From: Chitinophaga sp. LS1
GTDB taxonomy: Bacteria; Bacteroidota; Bacteroidia; Chitinophagales; Chitinophagaceae
Direction of reading: 5' to 3'
Length of the DNA stretch: 64,000 nt
Assembly: GCF_034274695.1 (NCBI RefSeq)
Contig: NZ_CP128362.1
Location: 8,000,501 to 8,064,500 of the forward strand
Below, in pieces: positions 13,794 through 31,876 of the stretch (position 1 is the stretch's first letter; each line of letters starts with the position of its first letter). The notes beneath the pieces were generated by a model. That model made no database searches. It was not told the origin of the DNA and worked only from the letters and a program-made list of their open reading frames with translations. The position numbers were made by a program, and so were the translations under genes.

Positions 13794-13800
13794 ATATAAA

Positions 13801-13828
13801 CAAGGCTGCTGACCGGACAGCAGCCTTG
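13801..13828. terminator. Bidirectional intrinsic terminator between GH8 gene and tail island
   Basis: An 11-bp perfect stem (13801-13811 with 13818-13828) and 6-nt loop, followed by TTTTA on the plus strand; A residues precede it for the opposite strand. It separates the convergent GH8 gene and the last gene of the tail operon. Confidence 0.85.
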
Positions 13829-13838
13829 TTTTACTTCA

Positions 13839-16274
13839 TTAACCATATAAGAAAGGAAATCTATACAACCCAAGGTAAGGTGCAGTTTCTCCTAATAAAC
13901 GGTTCGTACCACCTGCCACAGCATCTGTAAATGGCGTGAACGCCACTCTTCTCACCGTCATAGCCTGGTGATGCCATGCAGCCACACCTGCGGAGAGTTG
14001 TTCCGGATCAGGTAACCATGGACTGAGGCTGGATGGTTTGGAAGGAAAGGACAGACCAAATGAAAAACGGCCCGCGATGTCAGGTACATAGAAAGGATTG
14101 TTCTGGATCAGCACACCATCAATGTAGTATTCCACCCTGTTCGCATACCAGTCAATTCTAAATTCATGGAATGCATCGTCCCAGATATCTTTTCCTGCTG
14201 AAGCGCGCATTTCAAGGAACTCTTCCTGCTGGTTATCCGGTGTCTGTGTAAAACCGACACCTTCACCCAGTTCACCTCGTGCATTTGTTATTTTCAACTG
14301 ATCCCTGCGGGGTTGTTTTAAAAACTGCATTTCATCGCTGAACTTTGTCCAGCTGGAAAGCTGGTTTGGAGCGGCAGGTGTGTTTAGCTGGTAAGTACCA
14401 TTGTTTTCATCGGTATCGTATTGTACGATCACCTTCATACCTGCATAGGGGTTGATATAACTGGCCGTCAGCATGGCGTTGACTGTGTAAAAGGACCAGA
14501 CTGCATTGTTGGATGGTAGTTCGAGAGACCACTCGTTCTTCACTTTTACAAAGTAGCCATCCCCCTCGAAGTAATTACCCTGCTGATGCAGACCGCTGGC
14601 AATGCACTGGTCGTAAAACGGGTCCTGGAGTTTAGCGCTTGCATGATGGTATAGGCGGAAGAAGGGAGATACGCCAAATTGTTTGGGTAGTTTTGCTTCT
14701 ACTATATAGCGGCCGTATCCACAGTATCTCTGGGTAGTGACAGCTGCCCCTACACGGGTGTTCCAGTACTCTCCTATTAACGGGTCGCCTGATTCTGTAT
14801 GTTTTTTGGCAGCGCCATCGGTATCTACGCCATGTAAGAGGCCGTCATACCAGTCGCCATGTGCTTCGAGTACGAGCAGGCCATCTTTGAAGTAGATGTT
14901 TTTGGGAACGACGCCACCATCTGCACCGCCATCGAGGTTTTTCGACAAGGCATAGTGATTGACCTGGAACATATCGATGGTATTACCATTGTCATCAGCG
15001 AGTGCGAAGTTGAAATCATATGCACTGGTTTGCTTTGAGATGTCGTTCACGTAGATGCGAACAGGGGTCGTTGTACTGGTGTTGTTGTTATACTTTACAT
15101 AGAAATCATAACTACCATTTGCCAGGCTCTGTGGCAGTGTAAAACTGACCTTGGTGCTGGTAACTTCAATCAGGTTCTCGTGAGGAATAGTGATTACATT
15201 ACCCGCATTATAGGGATCCTGTAAATAACCTACAGGCGGAGCCAGAACGGAGAAGCCGGAATTGTCACCCAACTGGGATAAACCTGAGTTAACAAATATA
15301 TTCCTGAAAGTTCCTTTGCCAATATTTCCTGTTCCCCAGGTACTGGCGCCTATAGTCAGTTTCGTAGTGGAGCTGATCGTAGTCGGGATTGAATTTTCGG
15401 TGATATTACCGTTACCTACAGACGCACCATTCAGGTACATGTAGTTAAGCTGATTTGCGAGTAGGTTGTCAGCACTTCTTCCTATCAGCAGCTTGTTCCA
15501 GCTGTCAGGAATGATGGCAGTAGAAGAGGTGATACTTTCGCTTTCGCCTTCATCTACATTTTTCTGCTGCCAGATTATCCTCTTGCTTACATTATTTACA
15601 TATACCCCAATGCCATTTCCATTATTGTCCAGGCAGGTCATGAGCGGCCATGTACCAGTTGTAGCAAGGTCTGCACTGCTGACATAAAAGTAGATACCCA
15701 GACCATACCCGCTCTTTCCATCGCTACCCAAAATATCTAACATGGAGATATCATCCAATGTAATTTTGCTTGTCTGTGAGTCAAGATACACGCCAGTATA
15801 CCCGGATATTCTTTTCAGTACAGGGTTATCGGGCAACCGGACATTTCCATAGTTACCAAAATAGTCTTTGAAATCATTCTCCAGTGTGTAAAACAGCTTG
15901 CCACCTGGAGGGATCATGCCGGTTAGAAAGTTACCATCTTCTTTCACACAGTCTATCCTTGCATTAGGTGCATATTGTCCGCTGAGTGCATCATATACCA
16001 GTTCATTCGGTGTAGTATATAGTACATCCAGACTTCCGCCAGTTACATCACTATTCGTAAGCCGGAATACATAAGGCGTTTCATTTTCCAGCCCTTTGAT
16101 GAGCGGAGGGTTCACTATCGTACCACTCGTGAGTACAAACAGGCTGTCGGTAACCAGTGTATAGCTATCTGCTACATCCGGAGCATCCTGTCTGCGAAAG
16201 CTCAGGCTCATTGTTTGCGGGGAACCTGGCGCCTTTCCATCCGACCACATCACTTTTGTTAGCTCAATATTCAT
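13839..16274 (-). CDS. Tail-associated protein with LamG-like and GH16-like domains (putative receptor-binding fibre)
   Basis: An 811-residue protein without signal peptide, last gene of the contractile tail operon. N-terminal beta-rich region (1-130), a concanavalin/LamG-like region (about 150-340), a beta-sandwich (about 350-420), and a C-terminal GH16-like lectin/glucanase fold (about 430-790). In the GH16 active-site position the sequence is NEWSLELPS: Glu581 and Glu585 keep the spacing of the E-x-D-x-E motif, but the middle Asp is Ser583. The phrase FHEFRIDWYANRVEYYIDG is typical of GH16. By position it is the receptor-binding or surface-glycan-degrading tip of the tail. Whether it still hydrolyses glycan is uncertain because of the Ser substitution. 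Confidence 0.7.
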   Translation of the reverse strand: MNIELTKVMWSDGKAPGSPQTMSLSFRRQDAPDVADSYTLVTDSLFVLTSGTIVNPPLIKGLENETPYVFRLTNSDVTGGSLDVLYTTPNELVYDALSGQYAPNARIDCVKEDGNFLTGMIPPGGKLFYTLENDFKDYFGNYGNVRLPDNPVLKRISGYTGVYLDSQTSKITLDDISMLDILGSDGKSGYGLGIYFYVSSADLATTGTWPLMTCLDNNGNGIGVYVNNVSKRIIWQQKNVDEGESESITSSTAIIPDSWNKLLIGRSADNLLANQLNYMYLNGASVGNGNITENSIPTTISSTTKLTIGASTWGTGNIGKGTFRNIFVNSGLSQLGDNSGFSVLAPPVGYLQDPYNAGNVITIPHENLIEVTSTKVSFTLPQSLANGSYDFYVKYNNNTSTTTPVRIYVNDISKQTSAYDFNFALADDNGNTIDMFQVNHYALSKNLDGGADGGVVPKNIYFKDGLLVLEAHGDWYDGLLHGVDTDGAAKKHTESGDPLIGEYWNTRVGAAVTTQRYCGYGRYIVEAKLPKQFGVSPFFRLYHHASAKLQDPFYDQCIASGLHQQGNYFEGDGYFVKVKNEWSLELPSNNAVWSFYTVNAMLTASYINPYAGMKVIVQYDTDENNGTYQLNTPAAPNQLSSWTKFSDEMQFLKQPRRDQLKITNARGELGEGVGFTQTPDNQQEEFLEMRASAGKDIWDDAFHEFRIDWYANRVEYYIDGVLIQNNPFYVPDIAGRFSFGLSFPSKPSSLSPWLPDPEQLSAGVAAWHHQAMTVRRVAFTPFTDAVAGGTNRLLGETAPYLGLYRFPFLYG

Positions 16275-16290
16275 TTACTAATTTTTAAGT

Positions 16291-16749
16291 TTATACATAG
16301 TTATCTACTTCTATACCCGCCATTACGCCAGGGCTACCAGTCAGAGAAGGTCTGATCATATACAACCGGAACCATGCATTGGTCGTATCGTCATACTTCT
16401 CGTATACTTCGCCGCCCTGCGAAATGGAAGGACATATTACCTGTGTGCCTTTAGTTGCAGTTGGGTACTGGGCATTCAGGTAGTCATCAGACAGGGAGAT
16501 ATTTACATCCAGCCTCCATATTTTTTTCATGGAGCCGGCTACTTCCTGGAACTGCTGATAGAGTGTATTGAAGGCTTCGAAGTCAGCTTTGTTATCCAGC
16601 AGGGTGCGAAGGCCAGAGATGTTATCCACACCGATGGTGTCTTCTGATTTGTGGAGAAAGCTGTCCAGCCAGTCCCAGAACTGATCCTGCGTGGGATAGG
16701 CGCCGGTTTGAAACCATCCTTTTAGTTTATTTCGTTCGCGTATTGCCAT
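16291..16749 (-). CDS. Phage tail fibre/collar-associated protein
   Basis: A 152-residue protein starting with RERNKLKGWFQTGAYPTQDQFWDWLDSFLHK, a segment (quoted in parts: KLKGWFQTG, QFWDWLDSF) that recurs at the N terminus of many Bacteroidota phage and prophage tail-fibre proteins. The middle part is a helix-forming region that could trimerise; the C-terminal part is beta-rich. It sits between the collar-domain protein and the GH16-like protein with 1- and 16-bp gaps, so it probably links the baseplate to the terminal adhesin. No enzymatic motif is visible. Confidence 0.65.
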   Translation of the reverse strand: MAIRERNKLKGWFQTGAYPTQDQFWDWLDSFLHKSEDTIGVDNISGLRTLLDNKADFEAFNTLYQQFQEVAGSMKKIWRLDVNISLSDDYLNAQYPTATKGTQVICPSISQGGEVYEKYDDTTNAWFRLYMIRPSLTGSPGVMAGIEVDNYV

Positions 16750-16750
16750 G

Positions 16751-17605
16751 TTATTTTATTTTCTGGATGTAGAGTGTAGCTATGAAGGGAGGACGGTTTT
16801 CATGGGGTTGGTTTCCTCCGGTGGTGGCCATACCACCGGTAAACGTACCGGCGGTTGGTGAGTAACCACCTGAGATACCATAGGTTTTGGTGGTTAATAC
16901 TCCGGTTTGCTCTACGGCTACTTCAAAACTATGCTTGTGCTTCGGCATCTGCGACTCAATCAGTGTAACGGTTTCCAAACCACCGGTTTTACCCACAGGA
17001 CTATAATCTGTCCTGCTTGGGTCGTAACCTACAGGGAATTTACCCATCCGGTTTTGGGTACCATTATTACCGTTACAGATTGCCCAGCCGTCTCTTTCAT
17101 TAACACCCAAACCGGTACTGGTGAAATTGTCTGAAATGTATTGGGCATCACAATCCACTTCGATAATATCTCCTTTCTTCCACAGTTTATTTATCTGCTG
17201 TGTAAATGAAGCCTGCATATTGGCAATTGTATCTCTCAGACTCAGCAGGGTTTCTATTCGCTGCAGGTTGCCATAGGCAATACCACCAGATGCAAAACGT
17301 GCTCTTTTTGTGAAGTATACATTCCTTGTCACCTGATCAGCAAAGAGCCTGCTTTCAGAGAGTTCTTCTACGATCCATGTGGATTGTTTGGGTCCTCCTA
17401 CAAATGGCAGCAATTCTCCATTATAACTGATCCAGCCGTCTGCTACATTATTACCTACTTCTTCCATACCTGACACGATCACCCCATTGCCGATCATCTT
17501 CGATAACCCTGCCAGCGCATCGTGGTAGGACGACTGCATAAAGTCAAGCGTATACTGGGTCATGGGGAAACCACCCAGGTTTGTTAATTGTTCTATTTTG
17601 TTCAT
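16751..17605 (-). CDS. Phage tail collar domain protein (short tail fibre-like)
   Basis: A 284-residue protein whose C-terminal half carries a tail-collar/microcystin-dependent-protein-like domain: GWAICNGNNGTQNRMGKFPVGYD followed by the ending PHENRPPFIATLYIQKIK (key residues GW.ICNG, NR.GKFPVG, NRPPF). Such domains fold as trimeric fibre tips and contact receptors or other fibres. The N-terminal part attaches to the baseplate, by analogy. It follows the gpI-like gene with a 4-bp overlap. Confidence 0.8.
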   Translation of the reverse strand: MNKIEQLTNLGGFPMTQYTLDFMQSSYHDALAGLSKMIGNGVIVSGMEEVGNNVADGWISYNGELLPFVGGPKQSTWIVEELSESRLFADQVTRNVYFTKRARFASGGIAYGNLQRIETLLSLRDTIANMQASFTQQINKLWKKGDIIEVDCDAQYISDNFTSTGLGVNERDGWAICNGNNGTQNRMGKFPVGYDPSRTDYSPVGKTGGLETVTLIESQMPKHKHSFEVAVEQTGVLTTKTYGISGGYSPTAGTFTGGMATTGGNQPHENRPPFIATLYIQKIK

Positions 17606-18087
17606 ACTCTTTGAATTTTGTAAGCCATACCAGCCAGCTTATAGGTATCGATCAGTGCAGACATCTCATTTTCATTGAAGGTAATGGTGGCTGGTACCAG
17701 TACATAAAAATCTACAGGTTCATTGCCAATTTCGGCTTCAGTAAAGAGATAGATAGGTTGTGCTTCTGTTTCGGTATACAGGAACTTTGGTTTGGATTCT
17801 TCTTCCTGATATATTAAGGTCACTTCATTACTCACCGCATCTACAATACGGATACCTCTGTCAGCCAGATCATACCGATCATTGAGCAATTTTTCCATAT
17901 ACACTACCTGTGGTGTAATGCTCAATCTATACAGGTTGGCATCACGATTTCGCCGGAACTGCTGATACAATATGTTAACAGGATAGGTAATAGCCTGCAG
18001 CCATGAAATATGTAATATCTTTCTGAGCCGTGGCGGCATCATTAACCTGATCAGTTTGTGATAGTCAATGTCAAATATGCTGCTCAT
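17602..18087 (-). CDS. Putative baseplate wedge protein (gpI-like position)
   Basis: A 161-residue protein, overlapping the baseplate J gene by 4 bp and the collar gene by 4 bp. It starts with a helix-rich region (LIRLMMPPRLRKILHISWLQA) and ends in a beta-rich part. In Mu- and P2-type tails the gene after J encodes the wedge protein gpI, and this protein fits that place and size, but I see no decisive motif. The call therefore rests mainly on gene order. Confidence 0.6.
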   Translation of the reverse strand: MSSIFDIDYHKLIRLMMPPRLRKILHISWLQAITYPVNILYQQFRRNRDANLYRLSITPQVVYMEKLLNDRYDLADRGIRIVDAVSNEVTLIYQEEESKPKFLYTETEAQPIYLFTEAEIGNEPVDFYVLVPATITFNENEMSALIDTYKLAGMAYKIQRV

Positions 18088-18926
18088 CGGATCGTGCTTT
18101 GAGGAGTGAATGAAATATCCAGGTCTTTCTCATCTACTATCCGCAGATATCCGGCATCGGGGTTATACTTTACATCAAAAGCGGTGTAGGGCAATGTACC
18201 ATATTGTGCCTGCGCCTGTACGATATGTGGGATCACCACACCGTCTACCTGTTGCAGGGCATCTACCAGGTAAGCCAATACCAGTGTACCATTGAAAGGT
18301 AAGTTCTTCAGGTAGTCTTTGACACGTGCACGGACAGGGTCAGGATTCGTACCATCCAGTCGTGCACCGTCACTTCCCAATACCAATGGATTATAGTAGA
18401 TGATCAGTTGCAGCTTCAGACTATCAGGAGGCAGGCTTTCCACAATAAGCGGTGTTACACCTGCATCCTTAATTTTGCTCATATATGTTGCGAATGATTC
18501 CAGCTGTTGTGCCGTAAGCGCCTTCAGATCGCCTTCCACAATGCGGGCTACTTTCAGCCGCAGACCTTTGGCCTGCTCGACTACAGCACTATACGCAATG
18601 ATCTTTTGTTCGGCCACCTGATCGTCTGTTAGTGCAGAGTTATCGTAGTAATCCGCTTCGTAAGCCAGCTCCGATCCATATTGAAAGTCTCTTGCCTTGT
18701 TTGCATACCAGCGCAGACTGTGTGGTGCTTTCTCATTGATCAGTGTCGTTACTTCAGACTTATGCAGATCAAAAAGATTCTCCAACGCCCAGATGCTCAC
18801 GGCTACAATATAGGTCCAGAGCCTCCATACGGCCACCTTGCTACTGCTGTTGAGCATAGAGAGCTCTGTTGTACCTGTGATACGGCTGATAATATCATCC
18901 TGTATTTCGGTGATTGTTCTTGCCAT
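18084..18926 (-). CDS. Baseplate J-like protein
   Basis: A 280-residue protein with the baseplate-J layout: helical N-terminus (ITEIQDDIISRI, then SSKVAVWRLWTYIVAVSIWALENLF with key residues W..W), central region and a C-terminal part PVRARVKDYLKNLPFNGTLVLAYLVDALQQVDGV (core: VKDYLKNLPFNGTL), which is characteristic of gpJ/Mu gp47 homologues. It forms the wedges of the baseplate that trigger sheath contraction. Homologues in this phylum are sometimes mislabelled nucleotidyltransferase; no such motif is present here. Confidence 0.8.
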   Translation of the reverse strand: MARTITEIQDDIISRITGTTELSMLNSSSKVAVWRLWTYIVAVSIWALENLFDLHKSEVTTLINEKAPHSLRWYANKARDFQYGSELAYEADYYDNSALTDDQVAEQKIIAYSAVVEQAKGLRLKVARIVEGDLKALTAQQLESFATYMSKIKDAGVTPLIVESLPPDSLKLQLIIYYNPLVLGSDGARLDGTNPDPVRARVKDYLKNLPFNGTLVLAYLVDALQQVDGVVIPHIVQAQAQYGTLPYTAFDVKYNPDAGYLRIVDEKDLDISFTPQSTIR

Positions 18927-18940
18927 AATTGTTTTAATTT

Positions 18941-19237
18941 TTAACTGATGCGGAAGTCCAGCTGTACACCCATGTAGCCGATGCCTCCCATTACGATGGC
19001 AGCGTCTTCGGTGGTGTAACCATTAGAAGGGACCACGCCTTCTTCCTGCAATTCCTGCCATACACGCATATCGATGATGTCGATATCAGGGATGAATAGT
19101 GTTTCACCAGCGATGCAGTCATCTGTAATGCTGCGGGCATTGGCGACAGCAAAGTCGAAGAGGGCGGCTATGCTTCCTTTTTCCTGCATGGAAATGTCTA
19201 GCAGGCATTGATGGGGTTTTACATTAACTGTCTCCAT
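18941..19237 (-). CDS. LysM-like tail protein (gpX-like)
   Basis: A small protein of 98 residues if started at 19237 (101 from the ATG at 19246). The N-terminal half, VKPHQCLLDISMQEKGSIAA followed by ANARSITDDCIAGETLFIP, is a LysM-like fold, matching the gpX family that sits at the tail tube/hub interface. It overlaps the upstream gp25-like gene, which supports translational coupling. Phage LysM proteins of this class act structurally rather than as peptidoglycan enzymes. Confidence 0.7.
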   Translation of the reverse strand: METVNVKPHQCLLDISMQEKGSIAALFDFAVANARSITDDCIAGETLFIPDIDIIDMRVWQELQEEGVVPSNGYTTEDAAIVMGGIGYMGVQLDFRIS

Positions 19238-19517
19238 AGGTAGCATCGATGTTTAACTGACCGGCGTCAGAAAGGGTGATTTTTTTAACAGTCATACCGT
19301 CGGCGATGAACTGGGTACGTATTTCGGCGAGCAGGGAATGGTAGTCATTGTCCTGTAGGAAACCGAAAGCGTCTATACCTGTATCGGGAGATTCCTTGAA
19401 GGTGGCCCGGTTGTTCATGAGGAGAATTTCCTGGTGCTGAAGATCGCTGAAGCCGGTAACGAAATCACCGTTGCGGACGTCGAGGTCCAAGTCTGTGTTG
19501 TATAGGATGTCTTTCAT
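19224..19517 (-). CDS. gp25/gpW-like baseplate wedge protein
   Basis: A 97-residue protein with the pattern of small baseplate wedge proteins (T4 gp25, P2 gpW, Mu gp46): an N-terminal DLDLDVRNGDFVTGFSDLQ, a central helix with LLMNNRATFKESPDTG and a C-terminal strand region VKKITLSDAGQLNIDATY. It connects the hub to the gpJ wedges. It overlaps neighbours on both sides (4 and 14 bp), typical of tightly coupled structural genes. Exact family is inferred from size, pattern and position. Confidence 0.65.
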   Translation of the reverse strand: MKDILYNTDLDLDVRNGDFVTGFSDLQHQEILLMNNRATFKESPDTGIDAFGFLQDNDYHSLLAEIRTQFIADGMTVKKITLSDAGQLNIDATYGDS

Positions 19518-19738
19518 GATAAAAATCCGTTAAAAACTCCGGTTACAGGCCCGCCTACAGAATCCTGCAACCCGGGAGGGATATAATTGATTTGAGCTGT
19601 TTTGATATAAGTATCAATCGCTTCTGCCAGCTTGCCAGACAATGCATTCAGCGTTTGCTCTTCATCACCATCCGTATTCTTCATATTTTTGAAAGCATTT
19701 TTTATCGCTGCTTCCAGCATACTTTTATTCAGTGACAT
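19514..19738 (-). CDS. Small conserved phage protein of unknown function
   Basis: A 74-residue protein: a helical N-terminus (LNKSMLEAAIKNAFKNMKN), an amphipathic middle (LAEAIDTYIKTAQINYI) and a Gly/Pro-rich end (VGGPVTGVFNGFLS). Proteins with this layout occur next to spike and gp25-like genes in Bacteroidota prophages. I cannot name a function; by position it may belong to the spike or baseplate assembly. Confidence 0.6.
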   Translation of the reverse strand: MSLNKSMLEAAIKNAFKNMKNTDGDEEQTLNALSGKLAEAIDTYIKTAQINYIPPGLQDSVGGPVTGVFNGFLS

Positions 19739-19742
19739 AGGT

Positions 19743-20207
19743 TTATTTTAATAGCTTCGCTAATCGTTTTTTAATATTCATGAAAGCAGATTTATTCATC
19801 GGCGCATAAATAGTTACAATCTCATCCAGCAGGTCATCCAGGCATTTCTTCAGGGATTCATCACCCGCACTCACTTCGAGTCCGTCTTTATCCATCTCAA
19901 AGAATTTATCTTCTACGAAGTATTGGATCTTATCCACCTTTTCCATACTGATCACTACAAAGTAATTGCTCTCCTGTATCCGTGCCATGAGCACACTGCT
20001 ATCTACCTGTGGAAAAATCAGTACGCCGTCATTATCCCCTATCACAGACCGCAGTCTTACATCTGCTATTTCCAAACCAGTGGCAGTGGCGGCTACAATG
20101 GTGCCTTCCTCCTCATCTACTTCCTTTACAATAGCCGGAATAATAATGGTATCAGTATGCGACAACTTCTTCAGCGCATCTATCAATTCACGTTGTGTCT
20201 TCGTCAT
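19743..20207 (-). CDS. Putative tail spike / baseplate assembly protein V-like
   Basis: A 154-residue protein with an OB-fold-like N-terminal half (IVKEVDEEEGTIVAATATG, then DVRLRSVIGDNDGVLIFPQVDSSVLM), the signature arrangement of Mu gp45 / P2 gpV spike proteins, and a short C-terminal helix. It would form the trimeric needle beneath the hub that punctures the target envelope. It is shorter than P2 gpV (about 211 residues) and no His-x-His iron-binding tip motif is visible, so a separate tip protein may be used. Confidence 0.65.
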   Translation of the reverse strand: MTKTQRELIDALKKLSHTDTIIIPAIVKEVDEEEGTIVAATATGLEIADVRLRSVIGDNDGVLIFPQVDSSVLMARIQESNYFVVISMEKVDKIQYFVEDKFFEMDKDGLEVSAGDESLKKCLDDLLDEIVTIYAPMNKSAFMNIKKRLAKLLK

Positions 20208-20213
20208 AGGGTT

Positions 20214-21251
20214 TTAAATTTTAAGACCTATTTCAGTCAGCCGCCGGCCACCCGACGCACCGAAAGTAACTTCTGTACTTTCGACGCGGTAGGTGCCATT
20301 ACGGACAGGGAACTTCGTATCTGATATCGCAGCCTTACACCCGGGAAAAACATAGGGTTGCAGAAACGCCACCAGCTTACCTTCATAGCCATCATATTTC
20401 AGTGTTTTCAACTTATTTTCTGCGGCTTTTTTCAGGGCATTCATATCTTCAAAATGAGAGATATGGATCGTGGTTTCAGCGCCGTTCTTATCACCAGCTT
20501 CGGCGGTGTAAGGTTTGTTCTTTTTATCAATGTAGATGGCTTTGACCAACACATGCGCATCACTGGCTTTCCTGAATTTGAGCTCATCATCCCTGATCAC
20601 AGTATAACCGATCTGATAACCAGCATCGTCCTTCACGTCCTCGTAAGTCAGTGCATCACCGGCTTTGCGGCCACGGACGTATTTGCCTGCTTTCGGATTT
20701 TTGAGATGATCAAAACCGGCATACAATAATTTGCCTTCGAAATAGACGTTCAGGTACAGGTTCTTTTTCAACCAGTCGAGAATATCGGTGCCTGTCATAC
20801 CTGAGAAATAAGCCTGGTTCAGGTTAAGATCGGGTATTTCATTACTCAGGAGGATATCAGTGCCAGCCGTAATTTTAGTGAGCAGCTTTTTCAGGGTGAT
20901 GGCTTTGTTACTATCCAGTATACCTTTTTGTTGCAGTTGCCAGCTATAGCCTTCGCACTCTATTATACAGGGAGTGGCAGCATTGATCCTCCTGACGAAT
21001 CCTTCAAATTCCAGATTAAGTACATCGTCATAACCCAGCCAGATTTCAACTTTATTGCCTTCTGCAAACTGATCGGCTGAATTCACAACGGACTTTGTTG
21101 GCAGCTTACCGGTATATCGCAACACAGCAGAAGCAGGAATAGTAATAGTGGCAGTATCAACGAAGGAATGCAGGCTGCGTTTGACTTTGACTTCTTTTAC
21201 GGAATAGAATGTGTAGCTGCCGATCTTGATTTCACATTTCAGGATAAACAT
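20214..21251 (-). CDS. Baseplate hub protein (gpD / Mu gp44 / gp27-like)
   Basis: A 345-residue beta-rich protein resembling phage late control gene D proteins: N-terminal barrel (KRSLHSFVDTATITIPASA, VEIWLGYDDVLNLEFEGFV), a middle domain with LLTKITAG and GMTGTDILDWLKKNLYLNVYF (core TDILDWLKKN), and a C-terminal barrel ending VFPGCKAAISDTKFPVRNGTY. It should form the trimeric hub between tube and spike. It lies between the DUF6046 and spike genes with gaps of 0-6 bp. Confidence 0.78.
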   Translation of the reverse strand: MFILKCEIKIGSYTFYSVKEVKVKRSLHSFVDTATITIPASAVLRYTGKLPTKSVVNSADQFAEGNKVEIWLGYDDVLNLEFEGFVRRINAATPCIIECEGYSWQLQQKGILDSNKAITLKKLLTKITAGTDILLSNEIPDLNLNQAYFSGMTGTDILDWLKKNLYLNVYFEGKLLYAGFDHLKNPKAGKYVRGRKAGDALTYEDVKDDAGYQIGYTVIRDDELKFRKASDAHVLVKAIYIDKKNKPYTAEAGDKNGAETTIHISHFEDMNALKKAAENKLKTLKYDGYEGKLVAFLQPYVFPGCKAAISDTKFPVRNGTYRVESTEVTFGASGGRRLTEIGLKI

Positions 21252-21782
21252 CTAAGCTTTGTTTAAGATGAATTTCAAATCGCTGATGAGGTTCATTTCA
21301 TAAGCTTGTATATTTTTTGTACCTGGTGATGGAGGAAAAGAAAGATCGGTGATCACTACTTTTTCACCTTCGTCAAAGATGAGCGAGGTCAGTGCGCAGA
21401 CAATAGGCAGTGCTTCGTTCCTGTTATACAGGTCCAGCAGGTCGCTGATTTCACCATCAGGAAAAGCGTTGTCCTCGCGGAGAATAATGCCTTTGATGTT
21501 TATTTTATAATCCTCTTTGCTGATCATTTCCTTCACCGTACCGGACCGGTTTACCAGTGCTGTTTGTACAATTGTCTTTTGATTGCTGATACTGATAACG
21601 GGGTTATACAGTTCAAGTGGCCCGATCTTTACCGCCATGAAATAGGCTTTGTTCCAGGTTTCTTTGCCAAAGTAACTGGTGCCCCGTTTGTTCATATCAG
21701 GCTGTGTGAGCACATTAAGGGTTTCGGGGGTATAGCCAAAGGTGCTGGTGAAGGTGCTGCTGATATCGATATTTAGTGCCAT
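21252..21782 (-). CDS. DUF6046 domain tail protein
   Basis: A 176-residue protein with the pattern of DUF6046 phage proteins: an N-terminal flexible region, a beta-rich core (GPLELYNPVISISNQKTIVQTALVNRSGTVKE, core NPVISISNQKTIVQTAL) and YKINIKGII followed by a C-terminal beta-hairpin region. It is placed between the tape measure and the hub, where P2 has gpU and Mu has gp43; a tail-tip or hub-adaptor role is likely from position only. Confidence 0.7.
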   Translation of the reverse strand: MALNIDISSTFTSTFGYTPETLNVLTQPDMNKRGTSYFGKETWNKAYFMAVKIGPLELYNPVISISNQKTIVQTALVNRSGTVKEMISKEDYKINIKGIILREDNAFPDGEISDLLDLYNRNEALPIVCALTSLIFDEGEKVVITDLSFPPSPGTKNIQAYEMNLISDLKFILNKA

Positions 21783-21784
21783 AA

Positions 21785-23644
21785 TTAAGCTTGTTTTAAA
21801 ATATTAAGCAGTGCATCTGTCACCTGTTGCTCCATGTTGGTAATGCCTTCGCCCACAGTGTTGGTGGTAATGTTGATGGTTTCGAAGAGCTTTTGCAGGG
21901 TGATGTTTACAGTACGTGCGCCGCCGGTGGTGATGCCAGACACTGTGTCTTTGGTATTGTCCATTGACATCTTTTTGCGGGTGGCATCAGGTTCAAATGA
22001 AACAACGGGGGCTTTGTCGGTTCCTTTGCCGGGAGGAAGGGGTGGTAACGAGGAGTAGGATGCACCAGTGCCACTGGCTGATCCGCCTCCGAAATTTCCC
22101 TGCCAGCTGCCGGAGCTACCATTGCCGGGGCCTGCATTTGCCTGATCTTTTTTCTTATTGACCTCAGCATTGAAAGTATCGGCGACCTTATCGCCTAGGC
22201 CCATGATGTCATTAACATCTTTTTTCATCGCTGCTGCGGTGCCGGAGAAGGTCAGCCCATCTATCGCCTGCTGGCCTGATTCCATGGCCTTGCCCCAGTC
22301 ACCGGAGAAAACATACCACACTGTTTTTGCTAAGCCCCACAAACCGGAGAGCAGATCTTTGATAGGTTCAATGGTATAGTCCCATATAAACTGGCCAAAG
22401 GTTTTGAGCACTTCCCATGCAGCCATGATACCACCTCTGAACCAGCCGAAAGTATTCCAGGCATAGATGATGATACCGATCAATGCACCGACAGCCACGA
22501 AGATCGCTCCTATCCCACTGGCCATCATAGCAGGTCCTAATAATTCAGCAGCGAGTGTCCATGCTTTGTAGCCGAGGACCACGCCAGCGACTACAGTGGT
22601 GAGGAAGCCTACCAGTTCTGAGTTTTCAGCGATCCATCCTGCTGCGGCACTTAACCAGCCGACGAGCGGTATCAGTGTGTTGTCAATAAAGTTGCTGACG
22701 GTAGGCATGAGGGCATTGCCGATCGTACCTCCTGCTTCGCTCATTTTTTCCTGCAGGTAGTGCCATTTTCCGGTAGCAGTTTCGCTCTGTTCTTTCATCA
22801 CGCCGAAGAACTCTCCACCTTTGGACGTAGCGGTCTGTAAAGCGGCTACAACGCTTTCTGTAGAGACTCCTCCTGCTGCCATGGAAGCCTTTAGTTCTTC
22901 AATGGATTGGCTACCGTTTGCAGCCATCAGCTCAAGTGGTTTGAAACCTGCTTCGTTCATGGCTTTCAGGGAATCTTCGGTCAGATGACCTACCTGTTGC
23001 ATATCCCCAAAGGCTTTGGTAAGGGAGTCCATTTTTGCCTGGTTACTGCCGCTTACATCACCTAGCATATTCATGGCAGGCATCAGCTTTTCGGCAGCGA
23101 CACCACTTTCAAGCAGGGTCTTTGCATTTTCCTGTAGCTTGTCATTGTCGAAGAAAGAGGTGGCTGCCATCTGGTGGATATCTTTCAGGATGTTGGCGGC
23201 GGCGGTGGAGGAACCTGTGAGCCGTTGAAAACCGAGTTGTGCCTTTTCCGCTGCCATGCCCATTTCGAGCAGGTCTGGCGAGGCTTTGATCATTTTGTCA
23301 AGACCAGCATCCGTTTTCTTTGTGATGTTCTCTTTCCATCCTTTTTTATTGAGAAAGTCGCTTCGATCCTGTATATCCTTTTTATCTTCTTCCCACTTGA
23401 GTTCTATTTTGTCAAGCCGGGCGATGGTGAAAGGACTTGTTGTTTTCTTTTTCAGGTCTTCGATCCGCTTAAACTTGTCTTCAATATCACCTAATGAGGC
23501 GCCAAGCTTTTTGTTGGATGCTACGAATATATTGTTGTCATCGATCGTATTCTTCATCCAGGTACCGATCTTACCGAAAGCAGCATCTGCTGCTTTCAGT
23601 AAGTCTTTATAGGTATCGGTTGTAATAGTAGTCAGGTCTGCCAT
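21785..23644 (-). CDS. Tail tape measure protein
   Basis: A 619-residue protein with a tape-measure N-terminal domain (about 135-320: ILKDIHQMAATSFFDNDKLQ, LLESGVAAEKLMPAMNMLGD, LKAMNEAGFKPLELMA), a hydrophobic helical stretch (about 330-440, two or three membrane-like helices) and a low-complexity Gly/Ser-rich region near 500-540. At about 0.15 nm per residue the tail would be near 90 nm. It acts as the ruler inside the tube and is ejected on firing. It follows the tail-chaperone genes, the canonical order. Confidence 0.92.
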   Translation of the reverse strand: MADLTTITTDTYKDLLKAADAAFGKIGTWMKNTIDDNNIFVASNKKLGASLGDIEDKFKRIEDLKKKTTSPFTIARLDKIELKWEEDKKDIQDRSDFLNKKGWKENITKKTDAGLDKMIKASPDLLEMGMAAEKAQLGFQRLTGSSTAAANILKDIHQMAATSFFDNDKLQENAKTLLESGVAAEKLMPAMNMLGDVSGSNQAKMDSLTKAFGDMQQVGHLTEDSLKAMNEAGFKPLELMAANGSQSIEELKASMAAGGVSTESVVAALQTATSKGGEFFGVMKEQSETATGKWHYLQEKMSEAGGTIGNALMPTVSNFIDNTLIPLVGWLSAAAGWIAENSELVGFLTTVVAGVVLGYKAWTLAAELLGPAMMASGIGAIFVAVGALIGIIIYAWNTFGWFRGGIMAAWEVLKTFGQFIWDYTIEPIKDLLSGLWGLAKTVWYVFSGDWGKAMESGQQAIDGLTFSGTAAAMKKDVNDIMGLGDKVADTFNAEVNKKKDQANAGPGNGSSGSWQGNFGGGSASGTGASYSSLPPLPPGKGTDKAPVVSFEPDATRKKMSMDNTKDTVSGITTGGARTVNITLQKLFETINITTNTVGEGITNMEQQVTDALLNILKQA

Positions 23645-23665
23645 TGTTTATTATTTTACACCATG

Positions 23666-23866
23666 CTATCGGGACAGCAACGACAATCCTTTCAATTCCC
23701 GTTGCCGGATATCATGCAGTTGTGCAAATTTCTCTGCCCATTGGGCGTCGGATAATTGCGAGGTGTCAACCTGGGGCAGATAATATTCGAACAGCGTTTG
23801 AATATAACCGAAAGGGTTGCTATCAAAATCGCCGGACGCCTCGCTTAGAGCTTTTCCACTTCTACT
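23666..23866 (-). CDS. Tail assembly chaperone C-terminal extension reached by -1 frameshift (GT-type)
   Basis: Between the chaperone stop at 23845 and the tape measure start at 23644 the -1 frame is open. A run of six A on the minus strand (23871-23866, codons AAA AAA = Lys96-Lys97) precedes it. A -1 slip there continues through KSRSGKALSEASGDFDSN, then NPFGYIQTLFEYYLPQV and ends at TAG (23666), giving about 66 extra residues and a fusion of about 163. No ATG starts this extension. Lambda G/GT, P2 E/E' and many other tails make such a fusion at exactly this position, where the extension binds the tape measure protein. Frameshifting itself is inferred. Confidence 0.75.
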   Translation of the reverse strand, partial: SRSGKALSEASGDFDSNPFGYIQTLFEYYLPQVDTSQLSDAQWAEKFAQLHDIRQRELKGLSLLSR

Positions 23867-24156
23867 TTTTTCGCTTCCAGCAGTTTATCCAGCTGCCCGC
23901 CCAGACCGTAGAGATAGGATTTATCTTCTACGATCTCCTCATCGCCACCCAGCCAGGTAGCTTTGAGAATAGTTTCGTGGTACGCCAGCGGATCGCCGGA
24001 GATGAGTGTCATGGCATAGCTGACTTCATCCCTGTTGGGTTTTCTGCAATAGCCTACTTTACCGTCGGCAGCTGTGAGTTTGAATACATCTTTGTGTTTT
24101 TTCTTCCATGCATCGATGTGTTCCTGGCTAACGGCAAGCGATTTTTCTACTGTCAT
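23845..24156 (-). CDS. Tail assembly chaperone (G-type, zero-frame product)
   Basis: A 103-residue, largely helical protein rich in charged residues (HIDAWKKKHKDVFKL, DEVSYAMTLISGDPLAYHE) placed between the tail tube and tape measure genes. Size, composition and position match the tail assembly chaperones that coat the tape measure during tail assembly. Its 3' end contains an A6 slippery run and overlaps an open -1 frame (see 23666-23866), so a minority of ribosomes probably make a longer form. Confidence 0.78.
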   Translation of the reverse strand: MTVEKSLAVSQEHIDAWKKKHKDVFKLTAADGKVGYCRKPNRDEVSYAMTLISGDPLAYHETILKATWLGGDEEIVEDKSYLYGLGGQLDKLLEAKKVEVEKL

Positions 24157-24192
24157 GATATAGGTTTAAATAATTGTGGTGAGTTTAAAAAA

Positions 24193-24615
24193 TTAAGCGT
24201 TTTGTTTCAGGCCCATGAAGATGATGGGTAGTGTGAGCTCCATGAATTTGGCGCCCTGTTCCCAGCCTTTTTCAAATTCCTTGAACTGGAAGCCCTGAAT
24301 GATATCAGTGCGGGGTACGGAGGTCGTGTCTTTTACATAGGTCACTACGATCTCGGCGCTGAGGTCGAGGATGTCTCTGCCGCCTGCATTCTTCACAGCA
24401 TCGGCGAGGATATCGTATTCAAATTTCAGCAGTTTGATTTCACCTTCATAGATACGTTTACCACGCTGGATGCCGATAGGTTCATCGCCGGCGCCATGCA
24501 GGTGTTCTTTCTCCTGGGATAATTTGTATTTAATACCCCGTATACCGGTCAGTTCTTTACCGAGCAATACTACTTTCATGTTTGCCCAGGTCACTTCTTT
24601 GGTGTCAAAAATCAT
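24193..24615 (-). CDS. Phage tail tube protein
   Basis: A 140-residue protein that matches the Mu/P2-like tube fold: KVVLLGKELTGIRGIKYKLSQ at the start, then EIKLLKFEYDILADAV and a final strand KFMELTLPIIFMGLK. Placed directly after the sheath gene and before the chaperone gene, the standard tube position. It would form stacked hexameric rings inside the sheath. It is not similar in sequence to the eCIS tube proteins at 61764-62701. Confidence 0.8.
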   Translation of the reverse strand: MIFDTKEVTWANMKVVLLGKELTGIRGIKYKLSQEKEHLHGAGDEPIGIQRGKRIYEGEIKLLKFEYDILADAVKNAGGRDILDLSAEIVVTYVKDTTSVPRTDIIQGFQFKEFEKGWEQGAKFMELTLPIIFMGLKQNA

Positions 24616-24649
24616 GTTGTTGTCTTTTAAATGTTGGGGTTAACAGCCA

Positions 24650-25819
24650 TTACTGGTTCAGTGCAGGATTGGTGAAGCCCAGTAATATTTCGATGGTTTT
24701 GGTGTAGCCTACAGGTACGATAGCGGCTTTCACTGTGATTTTACCGGTGCTCAGTACATTCTGATTTGCATCAACGTAAGCGCTAAAGGAGCTGATTTCG
24801 TCAGCCATAGAGGTGTTGACAGCTGTTTCAATCCTGCTTTGCAGGTACTTGATAACAGGCACGCTGAGTTTACCATCGGCGTCGATGGCCACTTCGTCAT
24901 TCAGTTCTTCTACATAGGTCTGATAACACAATGTGATAGCCTTGTCTACAACACGACCGGATGCGAGCTGACTGTAATCGTCGGTGGTCGGGGCACACAT
25001 AGGATCGTCGTTGATGTAATAACCGGAGCGACCTACGAATGTGCGGAAAAAGATGTAACCTTTGTCATGCAACGCATCAACGCCAGTGATGTCTTCAATC
25101 TTTTTACCGGCGATATAAGCGCCTGTAATTGGTAATGCACCATCTTTGACACGACCCAGGTTACGCTGTACCGGCACAGCTGCTGCACGACCCAGTACAA
25201 GGCCCACAGAAGCGCCATTGGTACGTGCACTACCGATTACGATACCGACGCGGTTATCAGAGAAGGTACGCAGATTTTTCAGGGTCTCAGGATGTTCGAT
25301 GTCTGCATTGACACCTTCCAGTAAGATCCGTACAGGCTTGAATTGTGCTGCATAAGTTTCTGCAAGCTGCTGTGCTTTGGGCACCGCATCAATCGTACCA
25401 GCGTCTAATCCATCTTTCATGAGTGGCAGGTAAATGTCGGAAGGAGTGAAACATACACCCAGCAGTCTGATACGTCCCTGTGCAGCATTCAGCAGCTTCA
25501 CAGCTCCTTCCGCATTGGTTGGATCTACAATCGTTGCCTGGTTTACACCGTCGCCAACAAGCATGATGTACAACTCTGCACCTTCACCAGCCAGGTCATA
25601 AAATTCCTTGATGCGGGCGTATGCATCAAAATTTAAATTGGTGTCTTTGATACCCAGGTTTTCGGCATCGCTCAGGCTATAGATCACCTTGGGTTGATTC
25701 AACGAAATCAATCCGTTTTCTAAACCCGTCAGAATTAAACCTGCAACCCCATCATCAGTCACAACGGTTCTGCCAAGATTGCCGTTGCCTAATGTAATTG
25801 CTACTTTTGGTAATCCCAT
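24650..25819 (-). CDS. Contractile tail sheath protein (DUF2586 family)
   Basis: A 389-residue protein of the DUF2586 sheath family, starting LPKVAITLGNGNLGRTVVT and containing the conserved middle GVNADIEHPETLKNLRTFS, RVGIVIGSAR, the segment GYIFFRTFVGRSGYYINDD, and a C-terminal domain with VPVIKYLQSRIETAVNTSM. The sheath shortens to drive the tube. Its presence shows that the island encodes a contractile, myovirus-type tail. It is unrelated in sequence to the eCIS sheath at 58229. Confidence 0.88.
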   Translation of the reverse strand: MGLPKVAITLGNGNLGRTVVTDDGVAGLILTGLENGLISLNQPKVIYSLSDAENLGIKDTNLNFDAYARIKEFYDLAGEGAELYIMLVGDGVNQATIVDPTNAEGAVKLLNAAQGRIRLLGVCFTPSDIYLPLMKDGLDAGTIDAVPKAQQLAETYAAQFKPVRILLEGVNADIEHPETLKNLRTFSDNRVGIVIGSARTNGASVGLVLGRAAAVPVQRNLGRVKDGALPITGAYIAGKKIEDITGVDALHDKGYIFFRTFVGRSGYYINDDPMCAPTTDDYSQLASGRVVDKAITLCYQTYVEELNDEVAIDADGKLSVPVIKYLQSRIETAVNTSMADEISSFSAYVDANQNVLSTGKITVKAAIVPVGYTKTIEILLGFTNPALNQ

Positions 25820-25858
25820 TTTTTACTTTTTTAGGTCCATTTAAATTGTGAAAAAATA

Positions 25859-26290
25859 TTACTTACTATTGCTGTAGCTCGCCTGGCTAAACAGATCATA
25901 AATATTCTGCTTCTTTGTATTGCCATCCAGCTCACGCAAAATGATACTCTGCAATTTTTGTAACACAGCATCCTGCAGATCGGGAGATACTGTTGATAAT
26001 GCGCGGACAAAACAAGCTATTTTGCCTTCCAGTGAGGTTTCCTCTTTGCAGGTTACGAGAATGCTAAGGGTATCGATACCTGTTTCGAGTGCTGCCAGTA
26101 CTTTGTTTTTAAGGATAGTATCTGCATCACCGGGGATGATCGCTTCCAGGAGATCTACCACGGGGCTTTCCAGGGCAGCTTTAATAATCCTGGTAACGCG
26201 CAGCGCTTCTTCAGCATGTGCTGCAATAAAAGCGTCGAATTGTTGTAATGCGTGTTTGATCTTTGTTCCTGTTTTTTTACAGAATGCCAT
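25859..26290 (-). CDS. Conserved helical protein of the tail operon, unknown function
   Basis: A 143-residue, mostly alpha-helical protein (FDAFIAAHAEEALRVTRIIKA, VVDLLEAIIPGDADTILKNKV split over 20-70). No signal peptide or catalytic motif. It lies between the small membrane protein and the sheath gene, transcribed with them. In tailed phages this place can hold lysis or neck genes, but nothing in the sequence decides. Unrecognised. Confidence 0.6.
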   Translation of the reverse strand: MAFCKKTGTKIKHALQQFDAFIAAHAEEALRVTRIIKAALESPVVDLLEAIIPGDADTILKNKVLAALETGIDTLSILVTCKEETSLEGKIACFVRALSTVSPDLQDAVLQKLQSIILRELDGNTKKQNIYDLFSQASYSNSK

Positions 26291-26324
26291 AGGTATATAT
26301 TATTTAATTGGTGTACTTTTTTAG

Positions 26325-26352
26325 AAAGCCCCCTCTTGACAGAGGGCGCTTT
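26325..26352. other. Stem-loop within the tail operon leader
   Basis: Arms 26325-26336 and 26341-26352 pair over 12 bp with one mismatch. T-runs follow on the plus strand only, so for the minus-strand operon it is an mRNA hairpin between the first and second genes rather than an intrinsic terminator. It could block antisense transcription or protect the downstream mRNA. Confidence 0.5.
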
Positions 26353-26375
26353 TGTTTTTAAATAGGGGGACAATA

Positions 26376-26618
26376 CTAACGTCTCTCCAGTACGCTTTCC
26401 AGGCGCTCCATGACCTTTGTATTATTTTCTATCACTCCCTGCATTTTGTCACGGTCATCGTTGAGATATTGGGTGAGACGATCTTCCAGTTTGATCTGGC
26501 GTTTCCACAATAACCATGCAATGCCGATGAGAACGATTACAGAGAAGGCCTGGTCTCCAAGCCGCTGGTAGAGAGCGTTTCCGGGGCTAACATCAATGAA
26601 TTCATTTAATAATAACAT
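26376..26618 (-). CDS. Small membrane protein, holin-like
   Basis: An 80-residue protein with one membrane segment at about 24-38 (FSVIVLIGIAWLLW) followed by a charged coiled-coil tail (residues 40-80: KLEDRLTQYL, KVMERLESVLERR). This one-TM plus coiled-coil layout is that of BhlA/UviB-type holin-like proteins in phages and bacteriocin clusters. It is the first gene of the tail operon. No endolysin gene was found in the island, so a role in particle release is only a suggestion. Confidence 0.6.
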   Translation of the reverse strand: MLLLNEFIDVSPGNALYQRLGDQAFSVIVLIGIAWLLWKRQIKLEDRLTQYLNDDRDKMQGVIENNTKVMERLESVLERR

Positions 26619-26855
26619 CTGAGGGTTAACAATTTAGGTTTTAAAAGGATCGATGCTTTTTCGTGTGTGTTGCAAGCGATAACAATACAAAGGAACAGCT
26701 TTTTCGTACGGTGAAAAAATCGCGAAATAATGCTTATACTTTTATTGTGCATTTAGATTTCAGTGTCTGTATAATCATTGATGCGATGAATTTTTAAGAT
26801 GCAGATTAGATCGATATTTACAGTGTTGTTAACTCTTAAAAAATATAAAAAAGAA

Positions 26856-27344
26856 ATGAACAGTTTATTTGCGCAACTTTTTACATCTCTGCAAACCCAC
26901 ATCGCTACAGCAGTTCCGGAGATACAAGGTATTTTACCAGAGATGGGGCAAACAGAAATTTATAGCAGTGTACCTGCTATATGGCCATGTGTATTTATTG
27001 ACTTCAACAGTGTCACTTTTACAGAAATACTCAATCAGGGACAACGGGCAAATGGTGAGCTCCAATTGAGGTTAGTATATTATGTACTCGCTGATGATGG
27101 GGTTACTTTTTTAGACACGACGACCGTGATGGGTTATTATGAAGTAGAAAGAAAATTGCACGAAGCATTGCAGGGATGGAGTAGTGATGGCATCAATCCG
27201 CTGAGTAGAATTAAAGTAAATACGGAGGTAAGATCGGATGCATTCAGGGCAAGGGTGCTGACGTATAGTCTGGATTTTGAGGAGTATTTGCCTGTGAGTA
27301 CGGTCCCAGGTTCAAAACCACAACTGGCAATTAATGTACTTTGA
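26856..27344 (+). CDS. Putative tail completion/terminator protein, divergent from the tail operon
   Basis: A 162-residue protein from the ATG at 26856 (an upstream in-frame ATG at 26799 exists). Its pattern, IYSSVPAIWPCVFIDFNSV near the N-terminus, then LQLRLVYYVLADDG and ARVLTYSLDFEEYLP, resembles Mu gp37-type and gpU-type tail completion proteins that cap the tube end. It is transcribed away from the tail operon, an unusual orientation for a structural gene, and ends before a pair of terminators. Confidence 0.6.
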   Translation: MNSLFAQLFTSLQTHIATAVPEIQGILPEMGQTEIYSSVPAIWPCVFIDFNSVTFTEILNQGQRANGELQLRLVYYVLADDGVTFLDTTTVMGYYEVERKLHEALQGWSSDGINPLSRIKVNTEVRSDAFRARVLTYSLDFEEYLPVSTVPGSKPQLAINVL

Positions 27345-27455
27345 GTGTCAGCAACAATATACATTACGCCCAAATGAAAAAGAGGTCATAAATAAATAAA
27401 ACCGCTGAGAATCGCATAAATGGAGACCTGGTTCCATTAGGTATCCGAATTAAAA

Positions 27456-27483
27456 GAGCGTGTATCAATTAAGGTACACGCTC
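27456..27483. terminator. Stem-loop, first of a tandem pair
   Basis: A 9-bp perfect stem (27456-27464 with 27475-27483) around a loop that includes CAATTAAG. It resembles the second hairpin at 27487 in loop sequence and stem apex, but is followed by a weaker T/A run. Confidence 0.6.
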
Positions 27484-27486
27484 AAT

Positions 27487-27526
27487 AAAAAAAGCCTGTA
27501 TCAATTAAGATACAGGCTTTTTTTTT
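27487..27526. terminator. Strong bidirectional intrinsic terminator
   Basis: An 11-bp GC-containing stem (27491-27501 with 27510-27520) and loop CAATTAAG, flanked by seven A on the left and nine T on the right, so it can end transcription from both the divergent tail-completion gene and the regulator-like gene at 27548. Confidence 0.9.
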
Positions 27527-27547
27527 CAGGGTTAACAATCGTTGACA

Positions 27548-27859
27548 TTACCACGTCAACCATGGATAGAGCAGCCGTAGTTGCCTGAGGTCGGGTTGTT
27601 CTTTTTTCATAATGGTTTCCAGTCGGTCACTGTTACATTGCATCCGGTAAATAATATTACTGTTCTTGATGTAGAACTCTTTGGATAACTCCTGTACAGC
27701 GGCATCATACCGTTTATGCTGCAGTTTGATGTAATAATAATACCGGTGCAGCAGGCATTCGTCTCTCAGGGCGATCATATCGGCAGAGCGGCCTTTACGC
27801 ACTGTTTTGGAGACAGGATTTTCTATGAAATGATTGAAAAGGGTGTTTTGTCCTCGCAT
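27548..27859 (-). CDS. Small putative regulator or phage-associated protein
   Basis: A 103-residue basic protein (RGRSADMIALRDECLLHRYYYYIK divided at residues 23-45, and KEFYIKNSNIIYRM) ending QLRLLYPWLTW. Similar short proteins occur in Bacteroidota prophages and look like DNA-binding adaptors with a helix-turn-helix-like middle (YDAAVQELSKEFYIKNSNII). I do not recognise a named family. It sits beside the tail island and downstream of a DnaA-box palindrome, so control of the island is a reasonable but unproven guess. Confidence 0.5.
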   Translation of the reverse strand: MRGQNTLFNHFIENPVSKTVRKGRSADMIALRDECLLHRYYYYIKLQHKRYDAAVQELSKEFYIKNSNIIYRMQCNSDRLETIMKKEQPDLRQLRLLYPWLTW

Positions 27860-29051: not shown

Positions 29052-29055
29052 TCTC

Positions 29056-31698: not shown

Positions 31699-31876
31699 AA
31701 CTATATGGTGAATAAGCGGGATGATGGGATAGCCCCCCCTTTCTAAATACACAGTTCTCAAAACAAAGATATATTATTTGATACAATTATACAATATGAT
31801 TAAATAATAATATTAATTTATTGAGGCATAGACAACAACGAAAATTTTGCAAGCTAATTTTTCGGTAAATTGCATC

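Follow-up and report, generated by a model that had tools for sequence, protein, structure and literature searches.

Bacteria have co-opted contractile phage tails several times independently, including from a Mu-like phage, as described in the part of one report that was available (PMC12090994), so headless tails are a known kind of system. The R-type tailocins of Pseudomonas syringae are likewise headless contractile tails co-opted from a relative of phage Mu. In this work, a 64,000-nucleotide stretch (the window) of the 8.67-Mb genome of Chitinophaga sp. LS1 was analysed, in which positions 13839–27859 hold a headless contractile-tail island of 19 genes. In contrast to the P. syringae tailocins, this island belongs to another phylum and to a DUF2586-sheath lineage, its family appears to have lost the head three or four times, and some of its headless relatives keep MuA and MuB. 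BceTMilo of Burkholderia cenocepacia is a defective prophage in which the last tail gene and the first head gene flank the breakpoint, according to the sections seen of its description (PMC5411513), and as far as these go its breakpoint is like that of the present island; however, BceTMilo is P2/KL3-like and keeps its lysis genes, while the present clade has lost the endolysin. The Flavobacterium phages FPSV, fF4 and lotta/pippi and the Winogradskyella phage Peternella carry a homologous sheath (24–31% identity) and J protein (34–44%), but unlike the headless island these are deposited phages with records of 22–40 kb. Bacteroidales injection systems and other extracellular contractile injection systems (eCIS) are contractile tails in Bacteroidota as well. 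They carry an FtsH/AAA ATPase, according to the part of the source available (PMC7394362), which was not found among the proteins scanned here, and some eCIS loci have no lysis cassette for release, according to excerpts of another (PMC10598620). The titles and abstract openings searched, with subscription journals thinly covered, contained no tailocin of Chitinophaga and no MuA-bearing headless tail. Within this literature, and as far as the searches reach, the phylum, the parallel head losses with the terminator kept, and the headless elements with an intact-looking transposition module are new, whereby the headless elements retaining MuA/MuB are the most unusual part.

We consider it reasonably probable that the island is a domesticated contractile tail, similar to an R-type tailocin, whose source was a prophage carrying Mu-type head genes, and this soil bacterium probably keeps its headless tail genes as a weapon against neighbouring bacteria. 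The gene content, the missing head families, the selection on the genes and a conserved extension of the tail chaperone are directly shown. Seventeen closely spaced minus-strand open reading frames (ORFs), all with open frames, occupy 13839–26618, and a plus-strand tail-terminator-like gene (26856–27344) and p103 (27548–27859, minus strand) complete the island. A previous sequence-only reading had proposed a headless contractile-tail island, and the 17 ORFs together with profile matches for the sheath, tube, tape measure, hub, DUF6046, collar and tip demonstrate that it is real. The single minus-strand operon of that reading does not describe the interval, because the gene at 26799–27344 runs divergently on the plus strand; there are two divergent units, and p103 also belongs to the island. 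The gene order is preserved in all 12 other Chitinophaga tail-only islands, with one unmatched gene each in G017 (p143) and G030 (tip), which argues that the island is not a product of chance. Its features are listed below (phrog and PF accessions with E-values).

13798–13831, minus: terminator-like hairpin of 14 pairs, 3' of the last operon gene
13839–16274, minus: tip/receptor-binding protein, 811 residues, GH16-like C-terminal domain with altered catalytic motif (PF00722, Glyco_hydro_16, 7.2e-7 over 38 residues)
16291–16749, minus: p152, small fibre/attachment protein by position, without a family match
16751–17605, minus: tail collar fibre, Gp10_C (PF21939, 7.1e-6; phrog_8469 tail fiber, 1.5e-15)
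17602–18087, minus: gpI-like baseplate protein by position, conserved, without a named family
18084–18926, minus: baseplate J-like protein by position (unnamed phrog_38413, 1.2e-72)
18941–19246, minus: LysM-like small baseplate protein by position, conserved, without a family match
19224–19517, minus: gp25-like baseplate protein by position, conserved
19514–19738, minus: p74, small baseplate-region protein, conserved in tail-only islands
19743–20207, minus: spike-like protein by position (unnamed phrog_5275, 6.8e-4)
20214–21251, minus: baseplate hub (phrog_4930, 8.1e-61)
21252–21782, minus: DUF6046/baseplate hub-associated protein (PF19512, 6.9e-27; phrog_5233, 2.8e-13)
21785–23644, minus: tape measure protein, 619 residues (PF20155, TMP_3, 2.6e-12; phrog_9959, 1.7e-23)
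23666–24156, minus: tail assembly chaperone, a 103-residue ORF (23845–24156) plus a -1-frame extension to about 23666 (unnamed phrog_19076, 8.1e-22)
24193–24615, minus: tail tube (phrog_4579 tail protein, 1.9e-11), adjoining the sheath in the genus loci compared
24650–25819, minus: contractile sheath, DUF2586 (PF10758, 1.9e-57; phrog_907 tail sheath)
25859–26290, minus: p143, unknown phage protein; many head-bearing relatives have a homologue placed between the head protein and sheath genes
26376–26618, minus: TM80, one-span membrane protein, holin/spanin-like (weak phrog_214 spanin match, E 0.076)
26856–27344, plus (ORF listed from 26799): tail-terminator-like gene, role assigned from place and neighbours (unnamed phrog_6911, 1.9e-20)
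Near 27482–27525: hairpin between the terminator gene and p103, read by eye
27548–27859, minus: p103, a retained, conserved phage early-region protein (unnamed phrog_17154, 1.7e-12), in the same place in head-bearing G066, G200 and G332

The absence of capsid and terminase genes, as previously proposed, was confirmed for the whole genome, since neither the terminase family phrog_38 nor the head protein family phrog_267 has a match anywhere in it. The same two families are unmatched in the whole genomes of 18 of the 21 sheath-bearing Chitinophaga and present in the other three. As phrog_38 also matches 6 of 14 control genomes, its presence is unspecific, yet its absence is informative. In a family scan of 20 proteins (the 19 island proteins and the neighbouring PorP), the phrog_9206 label treated below was the only hit to a head or portal family; no genome-wide portal search was made.

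All 19 island genes are under purifying selection. The ratio of nonsynonymous to synonymous divergence (dN/dS) between the own genome and G046, G045 and G049 ranges from 0.03 to 0.33, at synonymous divergence (dS) up to ~1.9, with p143 at 0.04–0.06 and TM80 at 0.13–0.18; the flanking PorP and GH8 genes give 0.006–0.09 in the same comparisons. The compared islands share one site and have no head, so the selection measured here dates from after the head was lost. This site, designated site A, is occupied in five genomes, and its conservation, the selection on every island gene and the missing terminase and head-protein matches together uphold the domestication suggested by the sequence-only reading. 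Head genes at the same site, which that reading had named as contrary evidence, were not encountered: among the three head-bearing prophages of the genus, one flanking gene of site A was matched in G056 and, at the thresholds used, none in G034 or G066.

The R-type tailocin gene set of sheath, tube, tape measure and baseplate is present, some baseplate parts by position only, and the variable receptor-binding part is represented by the tip and collar fibre. The sheath is the single DUF2586 match in its genome, and [Flexibacter] sp. ATCC 35208 has a sheath of 100% identity to it. Pfam names none of J, gpI, gp25, LysM, spike and p74, and PHROGs offers unnamed families for J and spike only; these six names were given by gene order, size and conservation. 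Profile searches against solved structures gave no useful match for the sheath, gp25-like, spike-like and tube proteins, a weak match of J to a 'Baseplate component' (E 0.093), and a weak match of the hub to entry 7aef (E 0.044), which we take to be an Algoriphagus eCIS. The tube gene also matches phrog_9206, 'major head protein' (1.7e-29). This label was rejected because head-bearing relatives carry the tube gene downstream of the sheath, besides a separate head protein. Between the chaperone ORF and the tape measure gene lie 200 bases that hold the -1-frame extension of the chaperone. This extension is open and similar in all 11 loci translated, and phage tail chaperones are commonly produced via such a frame change. 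The small protein p152 was matched in 20 of 20 genus loci compared, in distant loci over its first 36–82 residues only, while p143 had no match among the deposited phage records searched. For the tail-terminator-like gene, a start at 26856 is more likely than one at 26799. No tRNA gene was found within the 64-kb window. Next to the island, at 28050–31761, a type IX secretion system (T9SS) PorP/SprF gene and a gene for a 901-residue protein form a pair, which also occurs in genomes without an adjacent p103.

A search of 79 Chitinophaga genomes found the sheath in 21. Thirteen of these have tail-only islands (the own genome, same-species G053, G046, G045, G049, G075, G068, G035, G069, G017, G076, G077 and G030), five have MuA/MuB-bearing headless elements (G051, with homologues in G018, G063, G060 and G012), and three have head-bearing Mu-like prophages (G034, G056 and G066). 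MuA homologues were found in 8 of the 79 genomes, namely the five headless carriers and the three head-bearing ones, and the same search gave no match in the own genome (G000). In the five headless carriers, an XRE-type regulator, MuA (phrog_310), MuB (phrog_296) and a DnaA_C protein lie directly upstream of p103. All 22 headless genome loci examined (own included, G053 left out) contain both p103 and the terminator, and TM80 is kept in all 12 other tail-only genus islands. Partial matches to p103 exist in Bacteroides and Porphyromonas phages, some of them annotated as transposase. At family level, J has a match in 57 of 394 genomes, from which 20 loci outside the genus were fetched and 18 included in the trees. 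Five of the 20 are headless with p103 and the terminator (three in genus g71, with MuA and MuB, and two in g15), 13 contain a head protein and/or terminase, L140 shows J with one adjoining gene and nothing else, and L131 is incomplete. At class level, J was matched in 21 of 395 genomes, of which 18 lie outside the family and 12 of these 18 have phrog_38. Among 15 further class loci, ten have head genes, four were not judgeable and one (G729) is apparently headless.

The G729 locus, from another family of the class, shows matches beside the sheath to p103 (6.5e-9) and, weakly, to the terminator (4e-4), in a genome without phrog_38. This apparent headless tail (L266:12571-17456) carries a regulator-like ORF and a gp25-like ORF in the divergent block, as well as amidase-like and spanin-like ORFs read by eye. 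IMG/VR lists such headless islands as viral contigs of ~10–18 kb (L207, L208, L211–L220).

The head-bearing relatives indicate how the island may have arisen. In G200, p103 points forward and is followed by the terminator, Phage_tail_S, Phage_Mu_F, Portal_Mu and terminase genes in reverse orientation, and then by the protease, head protein, p143 and sheath genes in forward orientation, whereby the terminator homologue directly joins the Phage_tail_S, Mu F and Portal_Mu group. The terminator/p103 arrangement is the same in G066 and G332. Head and packaging genes thus sit between the terminator and the lysis/p143 region in head-bearing relatives, and in headless loci this block is gone and the terminator is kept, with breakpoints not mapped to base level. 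The ancestral order would have been that of G200, continuing from the sheath into the tail genes, and the head and packaging block would then have been lost, leaving the terminator as the sole survivor of the divergent block. In G200, the Phage Mu F protein is fused to a PBECR2 nuclease-like domain (L143:6845-7984).

A sheath+J tree was built from 73 loci, of which 41 are headless and 32 headed. It requires at least four changes for the headless loci and rejects their grouping in a single clade (delta lnL 505, approximately unbiased (AU) test p 6.1e-5). Not included in this tree were 9 of 44 viral-collection loci, which had no sheath/J or were undetermined, and the near-duplicate G053, and several viral-collection loci in it duplicate genome loci (e.g. 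L224 and G051). Four headless groups, each with support of 100, were obtained: 24 tail-only loci next to G200 (97.8), eight Chitinophaga loci with MuA beside eight headed loci, among them G066 and G385 (100), seven g71 loci with four headed loci (weak, 69.3), and two g15 loci with G332 (moderate, 86.2). In a seven-protein tree, g71 and g15 are joined weakly (51), which gives three changes, the tail-only islands again stand next to G200 (74), and G066 and G385 again accompany the MuA-bearing loci (100). Across trees, support for G200 beside the tail-only islands is 72–98. These results suggest that the same head block may have been lost three or four times within one bacterial family. Weighing against several losses, the short terminator+p103 tree does not reject one headless clade (AU 0.127) and, unlike the tail trees, places the MuA-bearing islands beside G034 (support 65) instead of G066. 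Head regain, or the exchange of tail modules on one headless chassis, may be an alternative to repeated loss.

Most likely, the operon would make DNA-free tails, with the tube built on the tape measure and the sheath capped by the terminator. The tail end would consist of a baseplate with hub and spike, the collar fibre and the GH16-like tip, which would bind sugars. If the tail works like an R-type tailocin, this tip would attach to a surface glycan of related bacteria, after which the sheath would contract and the tube perforate the envelope. The kinship of the tip to GH16, as claimed earlier, stands: a profile of 19 tips matches beta-glucanases over ~43 positions in the solved-structure search (best E 1.8e-5). 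However, the aspartate of its putative catalytic motif is lost. At the E-x-D-x-E column, presumably the GH16 active site, the window tip reads E-W-S-L-E. E-[IV]-D-[MI]-E is kept in 7 of the 19 aligned tips, which include repeat loci (e.g. L212 and L030), and in the six tips of the window's clade S, G or A replaces D. Because of this loss, binding is a likelier role for the tip than catalysis.

The small holin-like protein of the sequence-only reading is present as TM80, but the endolysin of the sister islands is gone, so release by lysis is not established. All eight tail-only genus islands outside site A have an Amidase_2-type endolysin gene adjoining TM80, which none of the five site-A genomes shows. 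A CHAP-type gene is present in the five MuA-bearing loci, in three loci of g71 and, with 37% identity, in two of g15; both Pfam names were taken from one copy each (Amidase_2 from G030). A search of the own genome for the Amidase_2-type gene, run without a positive control, gave no match. Since the clade lacks the endolysin, the tails would be released by a lysin from elsewhere or via a non-canonical route. Alternatively, the tail could be a cell-associated, non-lytic contractile system, acting in or on the producing cell (e.g. in programmed cell death or contact killing), which we regard as unlikely. It would account for the endolysin pattern at site A and for 5 of 12 tail-only viral-collection loci, which are without the amidase yet retain TM80, the latter being under the purifying selection given above; among these, L213 and L217 stand apart from site A in the sheath+J tree and look like a separate endolysin loss. 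However, no membrane-anchoring or secretion gene was recognised in the island, and another chromosomal lysin could compensate for the loss.

Several points weigh against a domesticated R-type tailocin. We infer the particle, killing, target and release from an island known from its genes alone. The five site-A genomes have neither an amidase nor a CHAP-type match at E 0.01, no regulator was recognised inside the island, and several baseplate assignments as well as the terminator name rest on position. Since no slippery heptamer common to the 11 loci was found at the chaperone junction, the -1 frameshift itself is kept as putative.

The presence of eCIS loci in 89% of sequenced Chitinophaga, as given in the portion seen of that survey (PMC8213781), raises the question of an effector-delivering eCIS. 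This is very improbable, because neither an AAA+ ATPase (Cis15/Afp15) nor another eCIS-specific family was found among the 20 region proteins scanned, headless islands occur in only 18 of 79 genus genomes, and the nearest relatives are phages. In its composition, the island fits R-type bacteriocins rather than eCIS by the criteria in the part seen of PMC12210884, where phages and R-type bacteriocins have a fibre and a tape measure and no ATPase Cis15. The type VI membrane complex (TssJ, L, M) was also not found among the 20 proteins scanned; the genome itself was not searched for it.

Within the fixed site, the island has apparently exchanged alleles. Nine genes (16291–21251) show a dS of 0.46–1.12 between G000 and G046, compared with 0.06–0.27 for the other island genes and 0.22 for PorP and GH8, and this raised dS is a sign of recombination. 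Outside the closest two genomes, the tip (37–63% identity; G030 tip unmatched) and tape measure (32–67%) diverge fastest, and J is 64–85% identical across the tail-only genus islands. Common sites are further shared by G035/G068, G018/G060, G012/G063 and G076/G077, and the remaining loci are at single sites. Over 12.3 kb, the DNA of the G069 island is 95.4% identical to that of the G017 island, yet the two lie at different sites and their genomes are 84.1% identical at the one 4-kb locus compared; this points to transfer between species without MuA. On each side of the G069 island lies a copy of one arm (56 bases) of a dispersed hairpin repeat, and in G015, G021 and G016 its left and right flanks adjoin and the island is absent. 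A direct repeat spanning the island was observed in 1 of 20 loci tested. No exact empty site was found for site A, and 12 genomes with a 59–63% identical PorP showed no p103/GH8 match in the next 1.5 kb. The hairpin repeat of ~190 bases (L053:19560-19752) occurs 38–60 times each in 5 of 8 Chitinophaga genomes, among the matches listed.

In the MuA-bearing headless pairs at common sites, dN/dS is 0.06–0.07 for MuA and 0.04–0.05 for MuB, indicating that the transposition genes were also retained after head loss. It is conceivable, and we put it forward tentatively, that the head block was lost three to four times in one family and that two lineages (the five Chitinophaga genomes and g71) are transposable headless elements, mobile tailocins spreading by transposition and recombination, not by infection; the DNA-free contractile tail would then be the only particle of these MuA/MuB modules. 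The MuA elements are unmoved within the common-site pairs, and reading the flanks of five loci by eye for ends and target duplications gave no clear end. These elements (L059:465-5449 in G051, L063 in G012 and L061 in G063) end in 4–8 tandem ORFs of ~320–365 residues with signal-peptide-like starts and a common N-terminal motif. At one shared site there are eight in G012 and four in G063, and five of the eight best match one G063 gene. Exported-looking fibres would be puzzling on a tail assembled in the cytoplasm.

The retention of MuA and MuB under strong selection in some headless relatives, together with one island common to two species at different sites, could also point to a tail donor, whose tails serve the heads of another phage while the element moves as a satellite. 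Such a role is highly unlikely, as no small terminase, portal or head-tail connector was recognised, and phrog_38 is unmatched in the 18 headless Chitinophaga genomes, although other helper types were not searched. A decaying, functionless prophage remnant, for which the missing head, replication and lysin genes would speak, is the least credible explanation given the open frames, the purifying selection on all 19 genes and the retained chaperone extension.

Read as a domesticated tail, the island gives Bacteroidota phage-derived headless tails with head-bearing relatives in the same family. The steps of domestication, namely head loss, lysin loss, transposase loss and tip change, become directly comparable, and the MuA-bearing headless elements pose the question of whether a tail-only element can itself be a mobile element.

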